36,987 nt of DNA from Thermoleophilia bacterium (lineage in GTDB: Bacteria; Actinomycetota; Thermoleophilia; Gaiellales; Gaiellaceae): assembly GCA_009694305.1 (NCBI GenBank), contig SHVL01000025.1, positions 1 through 36,987 of the forward strand, in the 5' to 3' direction. The position numbers and the translations under genes are program-made. Position 1 is the stretch's first letter, and each line of letters starts with the position of its first letter. Below are positions 17,427 through 26,612 of the stretch, piece after piece. Below the pieces are notes generated by a model. It searched no databases. It worked only from the letters and a program-made list of their open reading frames with translations, and was not told where the DNA came from.

Positions 17427-17432
17427 AGTCTA
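17427..17432 (-). promoter_or_regulatory. -10 box of the cupin gene, overlapping the dnaE2 start
   Basis: TAGACT on the minus strand ends six bases before the cupin GTG. Its last plus-strand base is the A of the dnaE2 ATG (17432), so polymerase at this promoter would cover the dnaE2 initiation region. Confidence 0.45.
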
Positions 17433-20400
17433 TGACGTACGTCGAGTTGCACTGCCACTCGTCGTACTCGTTCCTCGACGGTGCGTCGCTGCCGGAGGAG
17501 CTTGCAGCGCGTGCCGCCGAACTCGGCTATCCGGCACTCGCGCTCACCGATCACGACGGCGTCTACGGCTCGCTCGAGTTCGCCCACGCGGCGAAATCTC
17601 TTGGCGTGCGACCGATAACCGGCGCGGAGGTGACGGTCGGTAGCGCCTCCTCGCCGGACACGGCCGGGTGCGGAGGTGCCGGCTTTGCCGGGGCCGGAGC
17701 GGGAATCGACTCGCATGTGACGTTGCTCGTCGAGTCGAGCCGTGGCTACGCAAATCTCTGCCGTATTCTCACCGAGGCGCACGCGGATACCCGTAGCGTC
17801 GGCCGTGAGCAGCACGAACTGCTCGCACCTTCCGTGGGCCAGGCATTCATCGAGGAGCACGCTGACGGCCTCGTCTGCCTCTCCGGCTGTGCCCGTAACG
17901 GCCTCGGCGTTCGTGACCCGGACGCCACCGCCCGTCTCATGCGTGCGTTTGGCCGCAGGAACTTCCTCGTCGAGCTGCAGCGTCCCTACGAGCGTGGTGA
18001 CGTCCGCCGCAACGCCGCCCTCCGCGACCTCGCCGAGCATCTCGGTGCCGACACCGTCGCCACCGGCAACGTGCACTCGCACGCTCCACGGCGCACGCTC
18101 CTTCAGGACACGCTCGTCGCCATCCGCGGCCGCACGTCACTCGACGGCTGTGAGCGGGAACGACGCGGTAATCGTGAGAGCGTCCTGCGTGCCCCAAACG
18201 AAGCTGCCGGGCGCTTCGCGGATATCGACCCCGCTGCCGCTGCCCGCACCGTCGAGATCGCAGAGCGCCTGCAGTTCGACATCACCCTGGAGCTCGGCTA
18301 CCGCTATCCGGACTTCTCCGGCGGTAGCGAACCGGCGATCCGCCAGCTTGCTGCAATCTGCAACGACGCGTTCGCAGACCGCTACCCGCCGAGCGACCAG
18401 AAGCTGCTCCGACGAGCGCGCATCCGCCTGGAGAAGGAGATCTCACTCATCGACGAGCTCGGGCTCGCCGGGTTCTTCCTGCTCCACTGGGAGGTGCTCG
18501 AGATCGCCAGAGACTGTGCCTTCCGGATACGGGGGCGCAACTCCCCTCGCCGGTTCCTGCCACCCGGGCGTGGGCGCGGCAGTTCCGTCGGTTCGATCGT
18601 CTGTTACCTCACCGGCCTCTCGCACGTTGACCCTGTCGCGAACGATCTCTCGCTCGGCCGCTTCCTCAACCGGGAGCTGGCCTCCGTCCCGGACATCGAT
18701 CTCGACTTCCCGCGTGATATCCGCGAGAAGCTGATCGTCGCAGTCACGGAGCGGTATGGCAACGATCACGCTGCGCTCGTCGCCAGCTTCTCCACCTACC
18801 GTTCGCGTGGCGCTATTCGCGATGTCGGGAAGGCGCTCGGGCTGCCACAGGCGGAGCTCGAACGACTCGCCCGGCTGACCGACGGCCGGGACGCCACCGG
18901 TATCGCCGAAGAGGTTGCGGGCCTGCCGGATGCAGAGCAAAAGCTGGTCTCGAAACGGTGGCGGGCGTTCGGGTTCCTCACGACCGAGATCGCCGGCCTG
19001 CCACGGCACATCTCCCAGCATCCGGGCGGCATGGTGATCTCGACGCGGCCCCTGATCGACCTCGTCCCGATACAGCCCGCCGCGATGGCGGGGCGACAGC
19101 TCTGCCAGTGGGACAAGGACTCCTGCGCCGATGCAGGGTTCCTCAAGATCGACCTGCTCGGGCTGGGGATGCTCTCCGCCGTCGAGGAGTGCGTCGAGAG
19201 CATCGCCGAGGCCTACGGCTCACCGATCGACCTCTCACGCATCCCGCTCGACGACCGCGAAGTGTTTGCCGAAATCCAGCGGGCGGACACGGTCGGAACC
19301 TTTCAGATCGAGAGTCGGGCCCAGATGCAGAGCCTGCTGCGCACGAAGCCGGAGACGATCGACGATCTCACCGTGCAGGTCGCGCTCGTGCGGCCGGGCC
19401 CGATCCAGGGCAAGGCAGTCCATCCCTATATCGAGAACCGGCGACGGCTGCGCGAGAATCCGGCGTTCGTCTACCCGGTAGACCACGAGGCGTTGCGGGA
19501 GCCGCTCCGTTCGACGCTCGGCGTCATCGTCTTCCAGGATCAGGTGCTCGACGTGGCAATGGCGCTCGCAGGCTTCACGGTGGGAGAAGCGGAGGGTCTG
19601 CGTCGCGCGATGAGCCGCAAGCGCGGCCGGGCCGCGCTCGAATCTCACCGGGTGCGGTTCGTCGAGGGTGCTGTCCGTAACGGTGTCGCCGAGGAGGCCG
19701 CAGACCGCGTCTACGACAAGCTCGTCGGCTTCTCGGGCTTCGGCTTCCCGAAGTCACACGCCGCGGCATTCGGGCTGCTCGCCTACCAGTCGCAGTGGCT
19801 ACGCCATCACTATCCGGCCGAGTTTCTCTGCTCGCTGCTGAACGCCCGGCCGATGGGCTTCTATCCGCCGGCAAGCCTCGTCCGCGACGCCCAGCGGCGA
19901 GGGATAGAGGTGCTTTCCCCCGATGTGAACCAGAGCGATGCCCGGTGCTCCCTTACCCCGGGCACCGAGCAGAGTGGCGATGCGACACAGGCCCCTCGGG
20001 CCGTGCGCATCGGCCTCTCGTACGTCGAGTCGGTCGGGGAGAACGATGCCGCGGCCGTGGTCGTGGAGCGCGATCTGAATGGCCCCTACCGGGATGTCGG
20101 CGACCTCGCACGGCGTGTGTCGCTCTCGAAGAGCGGTCTCGTGGCGCTCGTCGAGTGTGGCGCGTGCGACGGCTTCGGCTCCGAGCCTTCGAGGGCGAAG
20201 CGCCGGGACATCCTCTGGGAGCTCGGGCTGGCAACGCGTCCGGCATCTGTTCCGGGAACGAACGGCGCTGCAAAGCAGCTCACGCTCTCGCTCGGCCCGA
20301 CGGCTGCGACCCCTGCGCTTCGCGACCTGACGCGGTGGGAGCAGATGGCGGCCGACTACCGCCTCACGGGACTATCGGTCGGAACCCATCCGCTCGTGCT

Positions 20401-20776
20401 TCTGCGGCCCCACCTGCCTGGCGGCACGGTCTCGAGCTGCGAGCTGCACCGTTTGCCGCACGGATCCGCAGTGGCCTATGCGGGCCTTGCAATCGCTAGG
20501 CAGAGACCTTCCACGGCGAAAGGAATCGTCTTCATGCTGCTCGAGGACGAGCACGGCCAGGTGAATCTGATCATCCCGAAGCTCGTCTACGAGCAGTACC
20601 GGGCGATCATCCGTAACGAGCCACTGCTCCTTGCACGCGGCCGCTACGAGCGGGTGGGCGAGAACCGCAACATCCTCGTCACCTCGGCCGAGGCCCTCGG
20701 GGCGCTTGCCCGCCGTGTCGCAGATCTCGACGTTGGCGCAGCGCTCCCGCGCGCACATCACTTCGGGCGCCGGTGA
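17432..20776 (+). CDS. dnaE2: Error-prone DNA polymerase III alpha subunit DnaE2
   Basis: C-family polymerase that performs SOS translesion synthesis with ImuB. The 1114-residue product begins with a PHP domain (YVELHCHSSYSFLDGAS; His7 and His9; LALTDHDGVYG), then the palm with the catalytic pair in PDIDLDFPRDIREK (Asp421, Asp423), GRGRGSSVGSIVCYLTGLSH, fingers (YDKLVGFSGFGFPKSHAAAF) and a C-terminal OB domain (SAVAYAGLAIARQRPSTAKG). Length and the shortened C-terminus fit DnaE2 rather than replicative DnaE1. GGGGA lies nine bases upstream of the ATG. No SOS box was found directly upstream, so it probably depends on transcription from the imuB promoter. Confidence 0.94.
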   Translation: MTYVELHCHSSYSFLDGASLPEELAARAAELGYPALALTDHDGVYGSLEFAHAAKSLGVRPITGAEVTVGSASSPDTAGCGGAGFAGAGAGIDSHVTLLVESSRGYANLCRILTEAHADTRSVGREQHELLAPSVGQAFIEEHADGLVCLSGCARNGLGVRDPDATARLMRAFGRRNFLVELQRPYERGDVRRNAALRDLAEHLGADTVATGNVHSHAPRRTLLQDTLVAIRGRTSLDGCERERRGNRESVLRAPNEAAGRFADIDPAAAARTVEIAERLQFDITLELGYRYPDFSGGSEPAIRQLAAICNDAFADRYPPSDQKLLRRARIRLEKEISLIDELGLAGFFLLHWEVLEIARDCAFRIRGRNSPRRFLPPGRGRGSSVGSIVCYLTGLSHVDPVANDLSLGRFLNRELASVPDIDLDFPRDIREKLIVAVTERYGNDHAALVASFSTYRSRGAIRDVGKALGLPQAELERLARLTDGRDATGIAEEVAGLPDAEQKLVSKRWRAFGFLTTEIAGLPRHISQHPGGMVISTRPLIDLVPIQPAAMAGRQLCQWDKDSCADAGFLKIDLLGLGMLSAVEECVESIAEAYGSPIDLSRIPLDDREVFAEIQRADTVGTFQIESRAQMQSLLRTKPETIDDLTVQVALVRPGPIQGKAVHPYIENRRRLRENPAFVYPVDHEALREPLRSTLGVIVFQDQVLDVAMALAGFTVGEAEGLRRAMSRKRGRAALESHRVRFVEGAVRNGVAEEAADRVYDKLVGFSGFGFPKSHAAAFGLLAYQSQWLRHHYPAEFLCSLLNARPMGFYPPASLVRDAQRRGIEVLSPDVNQSDARCSLTPGTEQSGDATQAPRAVRIGLSYVESVGENDAAAVVVERDLNGPYRDVGDLARRVSLSKSGLVALVECGACDGFGSEPSRAKRRDILWELGLATRPASVPGTNGAAKQLTLSLGPTAATPALRDLTRWEQMAADYRLTGLSVGTHPLVLLRPHLPGGTVSSCELHRLPHGSAVAYAGLAIARQRPSTAKGIVFMLLEDEHGQVNLIIPKLVYEQYRAIIRNEPLLLARGRYERVGENRNILVTSAEALGALARRVADLDVGAALPRAHHFGRR

Positions 20777-21572: not shown

Positions 21573-21627
21573 CTAACCGGGAGCGGAGTGCGCTGCGCGT
21601 CGGACGGGAATGGGTGAGACTGCGCCC

Positions 21628-22131
21628 ATGCGCGCCGTGATCCAGCGAGTCAGTCGGGCAGAGGTCACCGTTGACGGGGTAACGGTCGGTGCGTGTGGGG
21701 CAGGCCTGCTCGTTCTTCTGGGCATCGTGACGGATGACGGCCCGACCGAGGCTGCCAGGCTGGCGGCCAGGGTTGCGCGCCTGCGGATCTTCGAGAACGA
21801 CGACGGCAGGTTCGACCGGTCTGTCGTGGACGTGGCCGGGGAAGTTCTTGTCGTGAGCCAGTTCACACTCGCCTCCGACAGCGGGCGCCAGAAGGGCACG
21901 CGACCCGACTTCTCGAAGGCGGCGAGGCCCGAGGTAGCCGAGCCGCTCTACGCACGGTTCTGCGAGGAGCTTCGCGGTCTCGGAGTGCCTGTCTCGACGG
22001 GTGCGTTCGGGGCTCGGATGGAGGTCTCGCTCGTCAACGACGGCCCGGTGACGATCGTCCTCGATGTCGAGACGGGAAGTGCCGGGACTGCGGCGCGCTC
22101 GGCCCCTGACCCGGAGGGCACGCGGGGATGA
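21628..22131 (+). CDS. dtd: D-aminoacyl-tRNA deacylase
   Basis: DTD hydrolyses D-aminoacyl-tRNA and mischarged Gly-tRNA-Ala, protecting translation. The 167-residue product starts MRAVIQRVSRAEVTVDG and has both active-site motifs, SQFTLA (77-82) and NDGPVT (137-142, carrying the Gly-cis-Pro). ATG at 21628 is preferred over one six codons upstream because it is the family start. The C-terminal 20 residues, rich in Ser, Ala and Pro, extend beyond the core. Confidence 0.94.
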   Translation: MRAVIQRVSRAEVTVDGVTVGACGAGLLVLLGIVTDDGPTEAARLAARVARLRIFENDDGRFDRSVVDVAGEVLVVSQFTLASDSGRQKGTRPDFSKAARPEVAEPLYARFCEELRGLGVPVSTGAFGARMEVSLVNDGPVTIVLDVETGSAGTAARSAPDPEGTRG

Positions 22132-22189
22132 GACAGGGGCCGCTCCTCGTGCTGTCTGAGGCGTAGGCTGTGCTCCCTGACTCGTGTGG

Positions 22190-22198
22190 TGCTATTCT
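22190..22198 (+). promoter_or_regulatory. Extended -10 promoter of the rimP operon
   Basis: TGC-TATTCT fits the extended -10 TGnTATAAT pattern at 22190-22198; the -35 region has no good match. It would start transcription near 22205 and give a leader of about 118 bases before the rimP GTG. No other -10-like box lies between the downstream hairpin and rimP. Confidence 0.45.
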
Positions 22199-22225
22199 CT
22201 TCCTACCGCATTTCTTGGTTTGACG

Positions 22226-22251
22226 AAATGGGCGCAAGAGCGCCCATTTTT
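22226..22251 (+). terminator. Intrinsic terminator in the rimP leader (attenuator candidate)
   Basis: AAATGGGCGC (22226-22235) pairs perfectly with GCGCCCATTT (22240-22249) around an AAGA loop, followed by T residues (TTTTT at 22247-22251). It is the only hairpin with a T-run in the window. It ends 72 bases before the rimP start, downstream of the likely promoter, so it may control readthrough into the operon; it could alternatively just end the dtd transcript. Confidence 0.75.
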
Positions 22252-22280
22252 GTTGAGGGAACAGGGTTGTTGAGGGAACA
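22250..22280 (+). repeat. Direct repeat in the rimP leader
   Basis: The 14-base word TTGTTGAGGGAACA occurs at 22250-22263 and 22267-22280, a 17-base period, directly after the terminator hairpin. Confidence 0.8.
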
Positions 22281-22322
22281 CCGCTCTTGGTGGAACACGG
22301 TTTGGCGACGAGGAGAACAGCA

Positions 22323-22763
22323 GTGGCTGACATGCTCGCAACGGAACGGAAGCTCTCCCGGGATATCGTCCCGGCGGTCGAGCGCGCCGTTCCAGGGGTC
22401 GAGGTGCTGGCAGTCGAGTTGCTCTCGCCAAGCCGATTCTGCGTCTATGTCGATCACGCCGAGGGTGTCGATCACGCGCTCTGCTCGCGCGTCACCGAGA
22501 TTCTTGCCGACTACCGGGAGGCGTACACGGTCGATGTCTCGTCCCCCGGGCTCGACCGTCCCCTCCGCACCGCCGAGCACTTTCGGGCTGCAATAGGCCG
22601 TGACGTGCAGATCCGTACCGTCGGCGAGATCTCCGGCACACAACGTTTTCGTGGCCATGTCGTGGCCGCTGCGCAACAGAGCCTCCGGATCGCAGTAGGC
22701 GAGACGGAACTCGACATCCCGTACGAGGCAATCGTGCGGGGCAACCTGATCGACGAGGGATAG
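22323..22763 (+). CDS. rimP: Ribosome maturation factor RimP
   Basis: RimP assists 30S subunit maturation. The 146-residue product shows ILADYREAYTVDVSSPGLDR, containing the family signature SSPGLDRPL, and a C-terminal SH3-like domain ending IPYEAIVRGNLI. GTG at 22323 is chosen because AGGAG lies seven bases upstream; an earlier GTG at 22287 would add 12 residues without a ribosome site. First gene of the rimP to pnp superoperon; nusA follows after eight bases. Confidence 0.93.
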   Translation: MADMLATERKLSRDIVPAVERAVPGVEVLAVELLSPSRFCVYVDHAEGVDHALCSRVTEILADYREAYTVDVSSPGLDRPLRTAEHFRAAIGRDVQIRTVGEISGTQRFRGHVVAAAQQSLRIAVGETELDIPYEAIVRGNLIDEG

Positions 22764-22771
22764 GTGACGTC

Positions 22772-24316
22772 ATGACCCAGGAAATCATGGAAGGCATTCA
22801 CACGATCGAGCGCGAGAAGGGCATCGAGGCCGGCACGCTCGTGGCGGCGCTCGAGGACGCACTCCTCGCCGCGTACAAGAAGACGCCGGGTGCCTCTCGC
22901 CACGCCGAGGTCATCCTCGACGACGAGGGCGACTTCAAGGTCTTCTCGATCGAGATTCCCGCCGACCTCGAGGAGCGACTCGTCAGCGAGGCGCGCGAGG
23001 CCGCGATCGACGAGCTCGAGCGGATCGAGGAGGAAACGGGCGAGCGGCAGCACACCCTCGTCACCGACACCGACCTGGAGCTCGACTGGACGCAGGTGCC
23101 CGAGGAGCTGATGGTTCGTGCCGATGCAACACCCGACGGCTTCGGGCGCATCGCTGCCATGACCGCAAAGCAGGTCATCCAGCAGCGCATTCGCGAGGCC
23201 GAGAGGGCGATGATGTACGACGAGTACATCGACCGGCAGGGGGAGGTCGTCACCGGCATCGTGCAACAGGCCGGCGACCGCAACAACGTGCTCGTCGATC
23301 TCGGTCGGGTCGAGGCCCTGCTGCCGCGCTCGGAGCAGGTGGATGGTGAGCGGTACGAGCAGGGATCCCGGATCAAGGCGGTGATCACCGAGGTTCGGTC
23401 GGGCACGAAGGGGCCACAGGTGATTCTCTCGCGGCGTGACCCGGAGCTGATCAAGACCCTCTTCGAGCTCGAGGTGCCCGAGATCGCGGATGGCCTGGTG
23501 GAGATTCGAGGCGTCGCGCGCGAGCCGGGTTACCGGTCGAAGATCGCCGTCGAGTCGCACACGCAGGGCGTCGATCCCGTCGGTGCGTGCGTTGGCCCGC
23601 GCGGTTCGCGCGTCCGGATGGTCGTCTCCGAGTTGCGCGGCGAGAAGATTGACATCATCCCGTGGAACTCGGAGCCCGCACGGTTCGTGGCCAAGGCACT
23701 GTCACCCGCACGTGTGCGGGAGGTCTACATCGACGACGACACCCGCGAGGCGACCGTGATCGTGCCCGACGATCAGCTTGCCCTCGCGATCGGCAAGGAC
23801 GGCCTGAACGCCCGGCTCGCAGCGCGCCTCACCGGCTGGAAGGTCGACATCCAGTCCGACAGCGAGTTTGCCAAGGCCGAGGCCGAGGCTGCGTATGCGG
23901 GCGAGGATGACACGCAGGAGTTCTCCGGTCGTTGTGCGGCGATGCTGTCGAACGGGAAACGGTGCCCGAATGCCGCCCTGCCAGGCTCTCACTACTGTGG
24001 CGTGTCGGCACATCAGGCACTGCACGGAACGGCACCTCCTGCGGCACTTCCGGAGGATGACGGAGCCGGCGAGATCGACGAGAGCATGGAGGGTGAGGTG
24101 ATCGAGGCGATCGAGGAGATCGTTGCAGAGGTCGCCATGGCAGAGGTCATGCTCGACGCGGCCGTCGAGGACGCGGTGATGGCCGGGGAGATAACCGTTG
24201 CCGAGGGTGCCGCTCTAGAAGACGCGATCGACGAGGTGGCCGTCGAGGTCGCCGCAGAGGAGATCGCAGAGGCAATCATCGAGATCGCGCAGGAGGACGA
24301 GTCTGCTGAGGCATGA
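22772..24316 (+). CDS. nusA: Transcription elongation factor NusA with C-terminal zinc-knuckle and acidic tail
   Basis: NusA binds RNA polymerase and modulates pausing, termination and antitermination. Order: N-terminal polymerase-binding domain (EIMEGIHTIEREKGIEAGTL), S1 domain (GEVVTGIVQQAGDRNNVLVD), KH1 and KH2 (GACVGPRGSRVRMVVSELRG; LALAIGKDGLNARLAARLTG). The core ends near residue 370. Beyond it, Cys388, Cys398, Cys409 and His414 form a small zinc-knuckle-like motif (GKRCPN, GSHYCG), followed by about 100 residues of Glu/Ala-rich, very acidic sequence. This tail replaces the AR repeats of E. coli NusA. The ylxR gene overlaps its stop (ATGA). Confidence 0.94.
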   Translation: MTQEIMEGIHTIEREKGIEAGTLVAALEDALLAAYKKTPGASRHAEVILDDEGDFKVFSIEIPADLEERLVSEAREAAIDELERIEEETGERQHTLVTDTDLELDWTQVPEELMVRADATPDGFGRIAAMTAKQVIQQRIREAERAMMYDEYIDRQGEVVTGIVQQAGDRNNVLVDLGRVEALLPRSEQVDGERYEQGSRIKAVITEVRSGTKGPQVILSRRDPELIKTLFELEVPEIADGLVEIRGVAREPGYRSKIAVESHTQGVDPVGACVGPRGSRVRMVVSELRGEKIDIIPWNSEPARFVAKALSPARVREVYIDDDTREATVIVPDDQLALAIGKDGLNARLAARLTGWKVDIQSDSEFAKAEAEAAYAGEDDTQEFSGRCAAMLSNGKRCPNAALPGSHYCGVSAHQALHGTAPPAALPEDDGAGEIDESMEGEVIEAIEEIVAEVAMAEVMLDAAVEDAVMAGEITVAEGAALEDAIDEVAVEVAAEEIAEAIIEIAQEDESAEA

Positions 24317-24558
24317 CCGCTGCGCCGGAGAGAACGTGCGTGGGTTGTGGGCGCAGGGCTCCGCAGGCCGAGCTACTGCGCTTCGGCTCCGTCGAGGGCC
24401 TGTTGACGGCCGGCCGAACGCTCCCGGGCAGAGGTGCGTACACGTGTCGGCGGCTCGTCTGCTTCGAGAGAGCGGTAGCGTCTCGCGGCTTCAACCGGGT
24501 GTTACGTTCCACGGTGGTCGTGGAGTCGGGCCTCGCGAGCCACTACACTGACAGCTGA
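24313..24558 (+). CDS. ylxR: YlxR/RnpM family RNA-binding protein
   Basis: An 81-residue DUF448 protein; homologues bind RNA and, in Bacillus, regulate RNase P. The signature RTCVGCGRRAPQAELLRF and the later GRGAYTCRRLVCFERAV with FNRVLR match the family. Start and stop overlap nusA (ATGA) and infB (TGATG), showing tight coupling in the operon. Confidence 0.93.
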   Translation: MTAAPERTCVGCGRRAPQAELLRFGSVEGLLTAGRTLPGRGAYTCRRLVCFERAVASRGFNRVLRSTVVVESGLASHYTDS

Positions 24559-26612
24559 TGGCAGACGAACCCAACAAGTCAAGCCGCCCGCTCCGCCCCC
24601 GTGTGGGCCAGTCCGGGCGTAAGCGCAGGGTCGTGATCGACGGCGGGAACACGCGCGGGCGCGACGGGCGCCAGGCACGCGATCGAGGCGCGTCGGCGGA
24701 GACGCAGTCGCGTCAGCAGCCGGTCGTAGCAGCCACGGGACCGGTGACCGTCCCCTCGGGTGTGAGTGTCAAGGATCTCTCCGCCGCCCTGGGTATCACG
24801 GTTGTCCAGATCATCAAGATCATGATGGGGCTCGGCGAAATGGTCACGATCACGCAGTCACTGAGCGACGACTCCGTGATGCTGATCGCCACCGAGGTCG
24901 AGCGGGAGGTCGTGATCAAGCATGCGGCCGATGACGACTCGGAGCCCGAGATGTTCGAGGATGCCGACGACGACCTGACTCCACGGCCGCCCGTCGTCAC
25001 GATCATGGGGCACGTCGATCACGGCAAGACCACGCTTCTCGACGCTATCCGCCAGACATCTGTCGTCGATACCGAGGCCGGCGGAATCACGCAGCACATC
25101 GGTGCGTACCAGGTCGTCATCGGCGGACGCCGGATCACCTTTCTCGACACGCCCGGCCACGAGGCCTTCACGGCGATGCGTGCGCGCGGTGCCAAGGTCA
25201 CCGATATCGCGATTCTCGTTGTCGCTGCCGACGACGGCGTGATGCCGCAGACGCGCGAGTCCATCTCGCACGCGCGCGCAGCAGGAGTGCCGATCGTCGT
25301 TGCGGTCAACAAGATCGACGTCCCGAATGCCAATCTCGACCGCGTCCGTTCGGAGCTTGCAACCGAGGGGTTGCAGCCCGAGGAGTGGGGAGGAACGACC
25401 CAGTTCGCAGAGGTATCTGCGAAGCAGAGGCTCAATCTCGACGAGTTGCTCGAGAAGCTGTTGCTCGTCGCCGACGCAGAGCTCGACCTGCGCGCCAATG
25501 CTTCGGTGGAGGCGTCGGGGCCAATCATCGAGTCGCGCCTCGACGTGGGCCGCGGCCCGGTTGCGACCATGCTCGTCCATCGCGGAACCCTGCGTGTCGG
25601 AGATGCGATCGTCGCGGGTGACGCCTCGGGCAAGGTACGGGCGCTCCACGACTACAAGGGCGACAAGGTCAAGGAGGCACGTCCCGGCGAGCCAGTGGAG
25701 ATCCTTGGTTTCGACCGGCCTCCGCCGGCTGGTGAGCTTGGTCGCGTCGTCGAGCACGAGCGCCTCGCCAAGGACATGGCTCAGAAGCGAGCAGGCCGCC
25801 TTCGGCGGGAGCAGCTCGCGCAGCGTTCCAAGCGCGGCGTTTCCCTCGAGAGCCTGTTCACCCAGATGCAGGAGGGTGTCGTCCAGGACCTGAACATCGT
25901 GCTCAAGGGCGATGTCCAGGGCTCGGTCGAGGCTCTGCTCGGCGAGCTCGGGAAGATCCAGCACTCCGAGGTGCGGGTCAACGTGATCCACACGGGCGTC
26001 GGGGGAATCACCGAGAACGACATCAACCTCGCGTCTGCCTCGAATGCCCTTGTGATCGGCTTCAACGTGCGGCCGAGCGCGGAGTCGAGAGCGCTCGCCG
26101 ACCGCGAAGGCGTCGATATCCGAACCTACCGCGTCATCTACCAGTTGACCGACGACATCCAGAAGGCTCTCGTGGGCATGCTCTCCCCGGTCGAGACCGA
26201 GGAGACGATGGGCGAGGCGGAGGTGCGCGCGCTGTTCAAGGTCTCGCGGCTCGGCACGATTGCTGGCTGCATGGTCACGAACGGCACGATTCGTCGCAAT
26301 GCCCAGGTGCGGGTGGTGCGCGACGGAACCGAGATCTATGACACGTCGATCTCGCAGTTGAGGCGGTTCAAGGACGATGCGCGCGAGGTCAGCGAGGGGT
26401 TCGAGTGCGGGATCCTGCTCGACGGGTACAACGACCTCAAGGAGGGCGATATCCTCGAGGCCTACGAGACGAGACAGATCGAGCGTACCGATCTCGCCGA
26501 GACCGTCCGGGCTCCGGCCGCTTCAGACGAGCCAGACGAGTTAGACGGATTAGACGGATTAGACGGATTAGGCGAATTAGACGAAGCACCGGCTGACGCC
26601 GAAGCAGAGTGA
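24558..26612 (+). CDS. infB: Translation initiation factor IF-2
   Basis: GTPase that delivers fMet-tRNA to the 30S subunit. A short basic N-terminus is followed by the IF2-N domain (VSVKDLSAALGITVVQIIKI), the G domain (GHVDHGKTT at 151-159; DTPGHEAFTAMRARG; NKID) and domains II-IV. At 684 residues it is much shorter than many actinobacterial IF-2 proteins because the long N-terminal disordered region is missing. The C-terminus ends in an odd LDG repeat encoded by tandem TTA codons, beyond the conserved domain. Start overlaps the ylxR stop. Confidence 0.95.
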   Translation: MADEPNKSSRPLRPRVGQSGRKRRVVIDGGNTRGRDGRQARDRGASAETQSRQQPVVAATGPVTVPSGVSVKDLSAALGITVVQIIKIMMGLGEMVTITQSLSDDSVMLIATEVEREVVIKHAADDDSEPEMFEDADDDLTPRPPVVTIMGHVDHGKTTLLDAIRQTSVVDTEAGGITQHIGAYQVVIGGRRITFLDTPGHEAFTAMRARGAKVTDIAILVVAADDGVMPQTRESISHARAAGVPIVVAVNKIDVPNANLDRVRSELATEGLQPEEWGGTTQFAEVSAKQRLNLDELLEKLLLVADAELDLRANASVEASGPIIESRLDVGRGPVATMLVHRGTLRVGDAIVAGDASGKVRALHDYKGDKVKEARPGEPVEILGFDRPPPAGELGRVVEHERLAKDMAQKRAGRLRREQLAQRSKRGVSLESLFTQMQEGVVQDLNIVLKGDVQGSVEALLGELGKIQHSEVRVNVIHTGVGGITENDINLASASNALVIGFNVRPSAESRALADREGVDIRTYRVIYQLTDDIQKALVGMLSPVETEETMGEAEVRALFKVSRLGTIAGCMVTNGTIRRNAQVRVVRDGTEIYDTSISQLRRFKDDAREVSEGFECGILLDGYNDLKEGDILEAYETRQIERTDLAETVRAPAASDEPDELDGLDGLDGLGELDEAPADAEAE
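26541..26585 (+). repeat. 9-bp minisatellite at the 3' end of infB
   Basis: Five tandem units of TTAGACGGA or close variants (the last two read TTAGGCGAA and TTAGACGAA). They encode LDG-LDG-LDG-LGE-LDE, each unit beginning with the rare codon TTA. The stretch is visibly AT-richer than its surroundings. Confidence 0.9.

Follow-up and report, generated by a model that had tools for sequence, protein, structure and literature searches.

Can the short leader in front of the rimP-nusA-ylxR-infB operon of this Thermoleophilia genome stop transcription before the first gene, and what would decide between stopping and going on? The question arises from the window (the whole 36,987-nucleotide stretch that was analysed, part of a 2.47-Mb MAG), in which a promoter element, a short hairpin, P1, and an intrinsic terminator hairpin, T, follow one another between dtd and rimP. 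The initial annotation read this arrangement as an attenuator. The features concerned are the following.

21610-22131, + strand: dtd, co-directional, upstream of the leader (Pfam)
22190-22198, + strand: extended -10 promoter element TGCTATTCT (direct reading; TGnTAnnnT at fixed spacing in relatives)
22205, + strand: predicted transcription start, an A 7 nt past the -10, +/- 2 nt (from promoter spacing)
22209-22214, + strand: 5' arm of P1, CATTTC, competitor of the terminator 3' arm (direct reading; P1 alignment)
22225-22230, + strand: GAAATG, common to the 3' arm of P1 and the base of the 5' arm of T (direct reading; alignments)
22226-22249, + strand: intrinsic terminator hairpin T, AAATGGGCGC-AAGA-GCGCCCATTT (fold, inverted-repeat search, alignment)
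22247-22251, + strand: T-run of the terminator (sequence read) and predicted end of an attenuated RNA of about 47 nt
22250-22283, + strand: 17-bp tandem duplication TTGTTGAGGGAACA(GGG/CCG) (repeat search)
22310-22315, + strand: rimP ribosome-binding site GAGGAG (direct reading)
22323-22763, + strand: rimP, first gene of the operon (Pfam, DUF150_C 4e-10)
22772-24316, + strand: nusA (Pfam, NusA_N, S1, KH_5)
24313-24558, + strand: ylxR (Pfam)
24558-26612, + strand: infB, encoding IF-2 (Pfam)

The leader in the window

Direct reading placed the extended -10 element, CATTTC and GAAATG exactly where they had been annotated, and the perfect intrinsic terminator about 72 nt before rimP was found as described. 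Its arms (22226-22235 and 22240-22249) form 10 bp with 100% complementarity around a 4-nt loop, and T was the sole inverted repeat reported within 22100-22340. The fold of 22205-22260 has an energy of -21.3 kcal/mol (z -3.15; 3 of 200 shuffles were equally good), and the whole 192-nt leader region showed no unusual stability (z -1.05). With up to three mismatches allowed, the stem pattern of T has a single location in the 2.47-Mb genome; the other hit of that search is the same palindrome read on the opposite strand. A simple terminator scan did not list the site because the T-run lies partly inside the 10-bp stem and the tail that follows is TTGTTGAG. Read as a G+C stem of 6-7 bp followed by ATTTTTG, T is an ordinary terminator.

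A consensus promoter scan of the window had no entry at the leader since there is no -35 match. The claim that TGCTATTCT is the only -10-like element was too strong, as TAGGCT at 22164-22169 also fits TAnnnT. Of these elements, only TGCTATTCT sits at a position conserved in relatives.

The start of rimP was taken as GTG 22323 because relatives use the matching codon as their start; a TTG at 22287 is also in frame. The gap from 22251 to this GTG is about 72 nt and puts the ribosome-binding site about 60 nt away from T. Part of this length is accounted for by the tandem duplication, in which TTGTTGAGGGAACA stands twice; it copies an RBS-like GAGGGA and lengthens the leader in this genome. RimP_N was not found in the window's own genome, although the C-terminal domain of RimP is present.

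Conservation of P1 and T in the family

A 6-bp pairing such as P1 could occur by chance in a single sequence, so the case for it depends on its conservation. The window's family, whose MAGs carry the label Actinomycetota or Thermoleophilia, is represented by 103 genomes; NusA was identified in 95 of them, and the DNA ahead of it was collected. From 94 first loci, two copies of the window (L008, L009) and three loci lacking usable upstream DNA (L007, L045, L056) were removed. A GGGC..GCCC core upstream of nusA was seen in 88 of the remaining 89 loci, the exception being L036. These 88 comprise the 84 leaders of the main set (window included; 83 distinct sequences), L069, whose contig was too short, and L040, L066 and L082, which gave no tblastn match and were inspected separately. 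L040 and L066 show both P1 and T, and L082 has T without CATTTC.

All 84 leaders have a RimP match downstream. A typical one reads TGCTATCCT, about 10 nt, CATTTC, a loop, GAAATGGGCGC, a loop, GCGCCCATTTTTT, a ribosome-binding site and rimP. The order annotated in the window, extended -10, P1, T and rimP, thus recurs across the family. TGnTAnnnT was found 8-11 nt upstream of CATTTC in 74 of the 76 family leaders tested, compared to 0.8 expected from mononucleotide shuffles. CATTT is present in 77 of 83 family leaders and absent from at least five (L006, L031, L076, L079, L081). In the alignment, G52, G54 and C55 and their partners C71, C69 and G68 are invariant in 83 of 83 leaders; the sequence of the T stem and not its shape alone is conserved, as is the U-run. 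Where the start rule gave a choice, which it did for 60 of 84 leaders, T and the rimP start are separated by 18 nt (median); for the window that rule picked TTG 22287, not GTG 22323. With its gap of about 72 nt compared to the usual 18 nt or so, the window is an outlier, and in relatives the ribosome-binding site lies within a few nt of the U-run.

Pairing was tested on the 83-row alignment, with P1 taken as 8 pairs and T as 11. For P1, 87.0% of cells were paired, compared to 28-53% for slid partners, and the covariation score of 0.174 was reached by 0 of 500 shuffles (0.123 +/- 0.007). Doubly changed pairs (3 vs 2.3) and pair types (13 vs 12.5) were not above shuffles, and a slide of -1 gave more double-changed cells than the true register (31 vs 23). 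For T, 95.2% of cells were paired, compared to 23-70% when slid, and its covariation measures were as mixed as those of P1. Covariation of both hairpins in relatives, suggested at the outset as a check, was seen in two measures and not in the other two for each helix. The bases of P1 are mostly invariant in the family, and we regard the case for its covariation there, judged from these alignments, as moderate. The proposed pairing between CATTTC and the base of the 5' arm of T is conserved. Subgroups extend P1 inwards with differing pairs: CAUUUCG with CGAAAUG, CAUUUCGG with CUGAAAUG, and CAUUUCGAGG with UUUCGAAGUG.

The best P1 stem had at least six pairs in 79 of 84 leaders, partly by construction because the best stem was sought. 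Of 73 family leaders, only 21 reached p<=0.05 in shuffle tests of P1 leader by leader, which are weak tests. A family permutation test counted 578 double substitutions vs 388 +/- 72, with a permuted maximum of 622, which is only suggestive. RNAalifold on the 83 leaders predicted T and did not predict P1, as is to be expected of two mutually exclusive helices of unequal strength.

P1 and T compete for GAAATG, and their mean energies across 77 of the 84 leaders (all except L006, L031, L039, L048, L076, L079 and L081) are similar: -18.2 kcal/mol for T and -15.7 kcal/mol for P1 plus the core, a difference of 2.5 +/- 2.3. The gap is at most 3 kcal/mol in 46 of the 77. The window itself shows a preference of 6.4 kcal/mol for T (-19.5 vs -13.1), so P1 may be too weak to matter there. 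When P1 is formed, a 5-bp G+C core with the U-run behind it can still form, and this might terminate transcription.

A leader peptide with the ATG in GAAATGGGC as its start was also considered and, by eye, rejected. The hairpin loop varies in length by single bases, so a reading frame is not kept, and there is no ribosome-binding site ahead of the ATG.

Distribution beyond the family

The covariance model R1 of the leader found matches in 90 of 103 family genomes and in none of 26 genomes that belong to other families of the order. Across the phylum, 4 of 396 genomes matched, all four within the window's family; both of these searches used stricter filters. Second matches were seen in three of the 90: G051 has one on the opposite strand at the identical position, G082 a weak one and G088 one on another contig.

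Scanning named genome contigs for the exact pattern returned 35 stretches. Thirty-four are titled Actinobacteria, Actinomycetota, actinobacterium or Thermoleophilia (seven bear the last name), and one belongs to a Myxococcaceae MAG. This MAG (L222, 959-1003) has P1 and T in the same order, and the next open reading frame is RimP (Pfam, RimP_N 5.7e-25), followed by NusA. Among 51 loci from the phylum of this MAG, 27 have CATTT, with 12 distinct arm pairs; most of these arms pair with the T arm over 8-10 positions, and one of the 27 (L248) is unpaired. Pairs beyond CATTT co-vary in this phylum, with 82 double substitutions vs 27 +/- 13 and a maximum of 68 in 300 permutations, so that covariation of P1 is clearer here than in the family. 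The family and the loci from the Myxococcaceae phylum together gave 1559 double substitutions vs 710 +/- 119 (maximum 1120), above all 300 permutations.

The terminator reaches further. Of 60 loci that represent eleven other families of the class, 52 have a strict GGG[C/T]..[G/A]CCC core with a U-run upstream of nusA. So do 16 of 40 genomes taken from 39 further families of the phylum; one of these 40 stretches (L280, 580 nt) cannot accommodate the leader. In family f9 the competing arm has another sequence, GCUUUC with GAAAGU or GAAAGC, and was significant in 3 of 6; a similar arm in f79, CUUUC with GAAGG, was not significant in the two tested. Shuffle tests found no P1-like competitor in f3, f5, f6, f7, f8, f78 and f80, and one in 11 leaders of f2. 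T is thus widespread and old, and P1 patchy.

Two further elements were seen in these families. The sister family f2 (L132-L147, e.g. L137) carries a hairpin GAGCGC/GCGCTC directly upstream of the terminator that shares no bases with it. In f6 (L168-L171, L182), a conserved AAACTGCGAGGT lies between the -10 and the rimP terminator, and no pairing of it with the terminator was found.

Relation to known leaders and proposed mechanism

Attenuator-like leaders before rimP or nusA in other bacteria, to which the initial annotation had appealed, are described in parts of three published sources (PMC2965389; PMC12288461; PMC4448216). The closest is the rimP-leader, which the founding paper calls the most ubiquitous attenuator and describes, in the part used here, as a short terminator upstream of rimP-nusA-infB with a GGGc..gCCC stem and a U-stretch, 4-130 nt from the gene (PMC2965389). 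The window has the operon position, a GGGc(...)gCCC stem and a T-run 72 nt from the GTG, and we consider it very probable that its leader is an attenuator of this type. According to the same part of that paper, NusA was suggested as the regulator (Naville and Gautheret 2010), and the general form has no visible antiterminator, one being seen only in some Gammaproteobacteria, together with a second terminator (PMC2965389). In the window, by contrast, the competitor is a short hairpin that takes up the base of the terminator itself. We call the element a variant of the rimP-leader because P1 is present in the family and in part of a second phylum, whereas the general form has no visible antiterminator.

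The window has no Rfam match at the gathering threshold. The Rfam family named rimP (RF01770), whose gene context is alike to judge by its name, gave no hit there at any E value up to 10. Its best score in the whole genome was 16.3 bits, at another place and below the gathering score of 47, and membership was therefore rejected. Literature queries that named neither Thermoleophilia nor Myxococcota, and that left subscription papers mostly uncovered, found no description of a P1-like hairpin at a rimP leader. The conserved competing hairpin appears to be a new element of the rimP-leader.

Three known leaders offer analogies. In Bacillus subtilis, a different phylum, NusA stimulates intrinsic termination in the leader of its operon and thereby regulates itself, and the 2025 review passage that reports this does not mention a competing hairpin (PMC12288461). 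In Streptococcus agalactiae, the RNA-seq results consulted show short and long rimP-nusA RNAs from one start and an intrinsic terminator; transcription ends 31 nt past the start, compared to about 47 nt predicted for the window, where P1 occupies the added part (PMC4448216). The Escherichia coli metY-rimP-nusA-infB operon is described in the section cited as having terminators upstream of rimP and as acted upon by its own product NusA (PMC6511841). That leader also has the metY tRNA, several promoters and RNase III sites, none of which was seen in the window.

We propose that the leader attenuates transcription of the rimP-nusA-ylxR-infB operon close to the promoter. RNA polymerase would start at about 22205, and the first RNA to emerge would fold into P1, CAUUUC with GAAAUG; in this nascent fold, the CC before CAUUUC may also capture the GG of GGGC. 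Once the 3' arm GCGCCCAUUU emerges, T could reclaim GAAAUG by strand exchange, and transcription would then stop after about 47 nt. If the polymerase passed the U-run before T had formed, the operon would be transcribed. The product of the second gene, NusA, would prolong pausing in favour of T, and much NusA would then leave little operon mRNA. The leader would thus probably let the cell limit its own supply of this termination factor.

The comparison of relatives supports the order promoter-P1-T-rimP, the shared segment, the similar energies and the independence from dtd. From these and from the known leaders, we infer actual termination, the start site, P1 as the antiterminator and NusA as the sensor. 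Comparison and analogy make P1 a somewhat probable antiterminator, and analogy with other bacteria makes NusA a reasonable candidate for the effector at a similar level of confidence. The full model, an attenuator with P1 as antiterminator and NusA feedback, is our preferred reading with moderate confidence, as its component readings are correlated and the P1 and NusA parts rest on analogy and comparison. The earlier interpretation thus stands by comparison for the leader, the pairing and the independence from dtd, and by analogy for NusA as effector. If the model is true, NusA feedback would extend to poorly studied soil lineages.

P1 could instead be no switch. The terminator alone would then be regulated, through stimulation by NusA, as in a plain rimP-leader, and P1 would be conserved for, e.g., initial transcription or protection of the 5' end. 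The lack of an antiterminator in the general form as given in the founding paper (PMC2965389) would be accounted for, as would the several families of the class that have T and no detectable P1. The reported S. agalactiae stop 31 nt past the start leaves scant space for an upstream hairpin (PMC4448216), and P1 spares the G+C core hairpin. Still, this explanation seems rather unlikely to us: the P1 pairs are kept and, in subgroups, lengthened with changed pairs, P1 covaries with the T arm in a second phylum, and the energies of T and P1 are close.

The hairpins at the 5' end could also shield the mRNA end or the ribosome-binding site without stopping transcription. The short distance between the U-run and the ribosome-binding site in relatives suits such a role in translation or stability, but the U-run is conserved though shielding does not need it, and in the window the ribosome-binding site is far from T. 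We give this explanation little credence.

We think it highly improbable that T is an ordinary terminator of dtd and that rimP is driven from elsewhere. dtd is co-directional upstream of T in the window, and 61 of 84 family leaders are preceded by a Dtd match, which in no case lies on the opposite strand. However, 23 of the 84 have no such match upstream (two of these have less than 100 nt of upstream DNA). According to Pfam, among 20 upstream ORFs from these loci, eight with a family match point away from T (L002, L031, L044, L054, L058, L059, L062, L065), seven with a match are co-directional and five have none; these ORFs are stop-to-stop frames, so gene starts are not fixed. L002, from the same genus as the window and with a NusA 93% identical, has a divergent T2SSE gene. 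Since T persists where dtd is missing and beside divergent genes, it is not simply the terminator of dtd, and the possibility that it serves only dtd, named at the outset as a refutation, is not supported. The conserved stem sequence and the position of T downstream of a conserved promoter, usually 18 nt before rimP, also speak against this role. A promoter downstream of T is unlikely from the sequence: 22252-22322, between the terminator and rimP, has no TA at all, and the gap of about 18 nt in relatives leaves little room for one.

That CATTTC/GAAATG, an inverted repeat near the start site, is a DNA operator for a repressor is scarcely credible, since the distance between its halves is not fixed (most leaders have a loop of 4 to 15 nt) and its changes are compensated as RNA pairs, G-U included.

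The attenuator model can be taken one step further. Because no antiterminator was seen, the stop-or-go decision of the rimP-leader has been left open. Tentatively, and at less than even odds, the rimP-leader of at least two phyla might be a ligand-free kinetic switch in which the CAUUU.. hairpin, transcribed first, races the terminator and senses pausing, and through it NusA activity. Its shortness and its limited reach, no further than the base of the stem, would explain why such a hairpin was overlooked in the general form. If this is true, a conserved competing hairpin of less than 50 nt, which leaves no space for either a leader peptide or a large aptamer, would turn the decision into a testable race between folding and polymerase.

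Two proteins encoded in the window carry features of separate interest. Past its KH region, at residues of about 388-413, NusA has a short Cys/His-rich stretch, CAAMLSNGKRCPNAALPGSHYCG, that looks like a small metal-binding motif; it also has a long acidic tail. At 17432-20776, upstream of a GNAT gene, lies an ORF for a 1114-aa protein of the DNA polymerase III alpha type (Pfam: PHP, DNA_pol3_alpha, finger, HHH_6), possibly of the error-prone kind.
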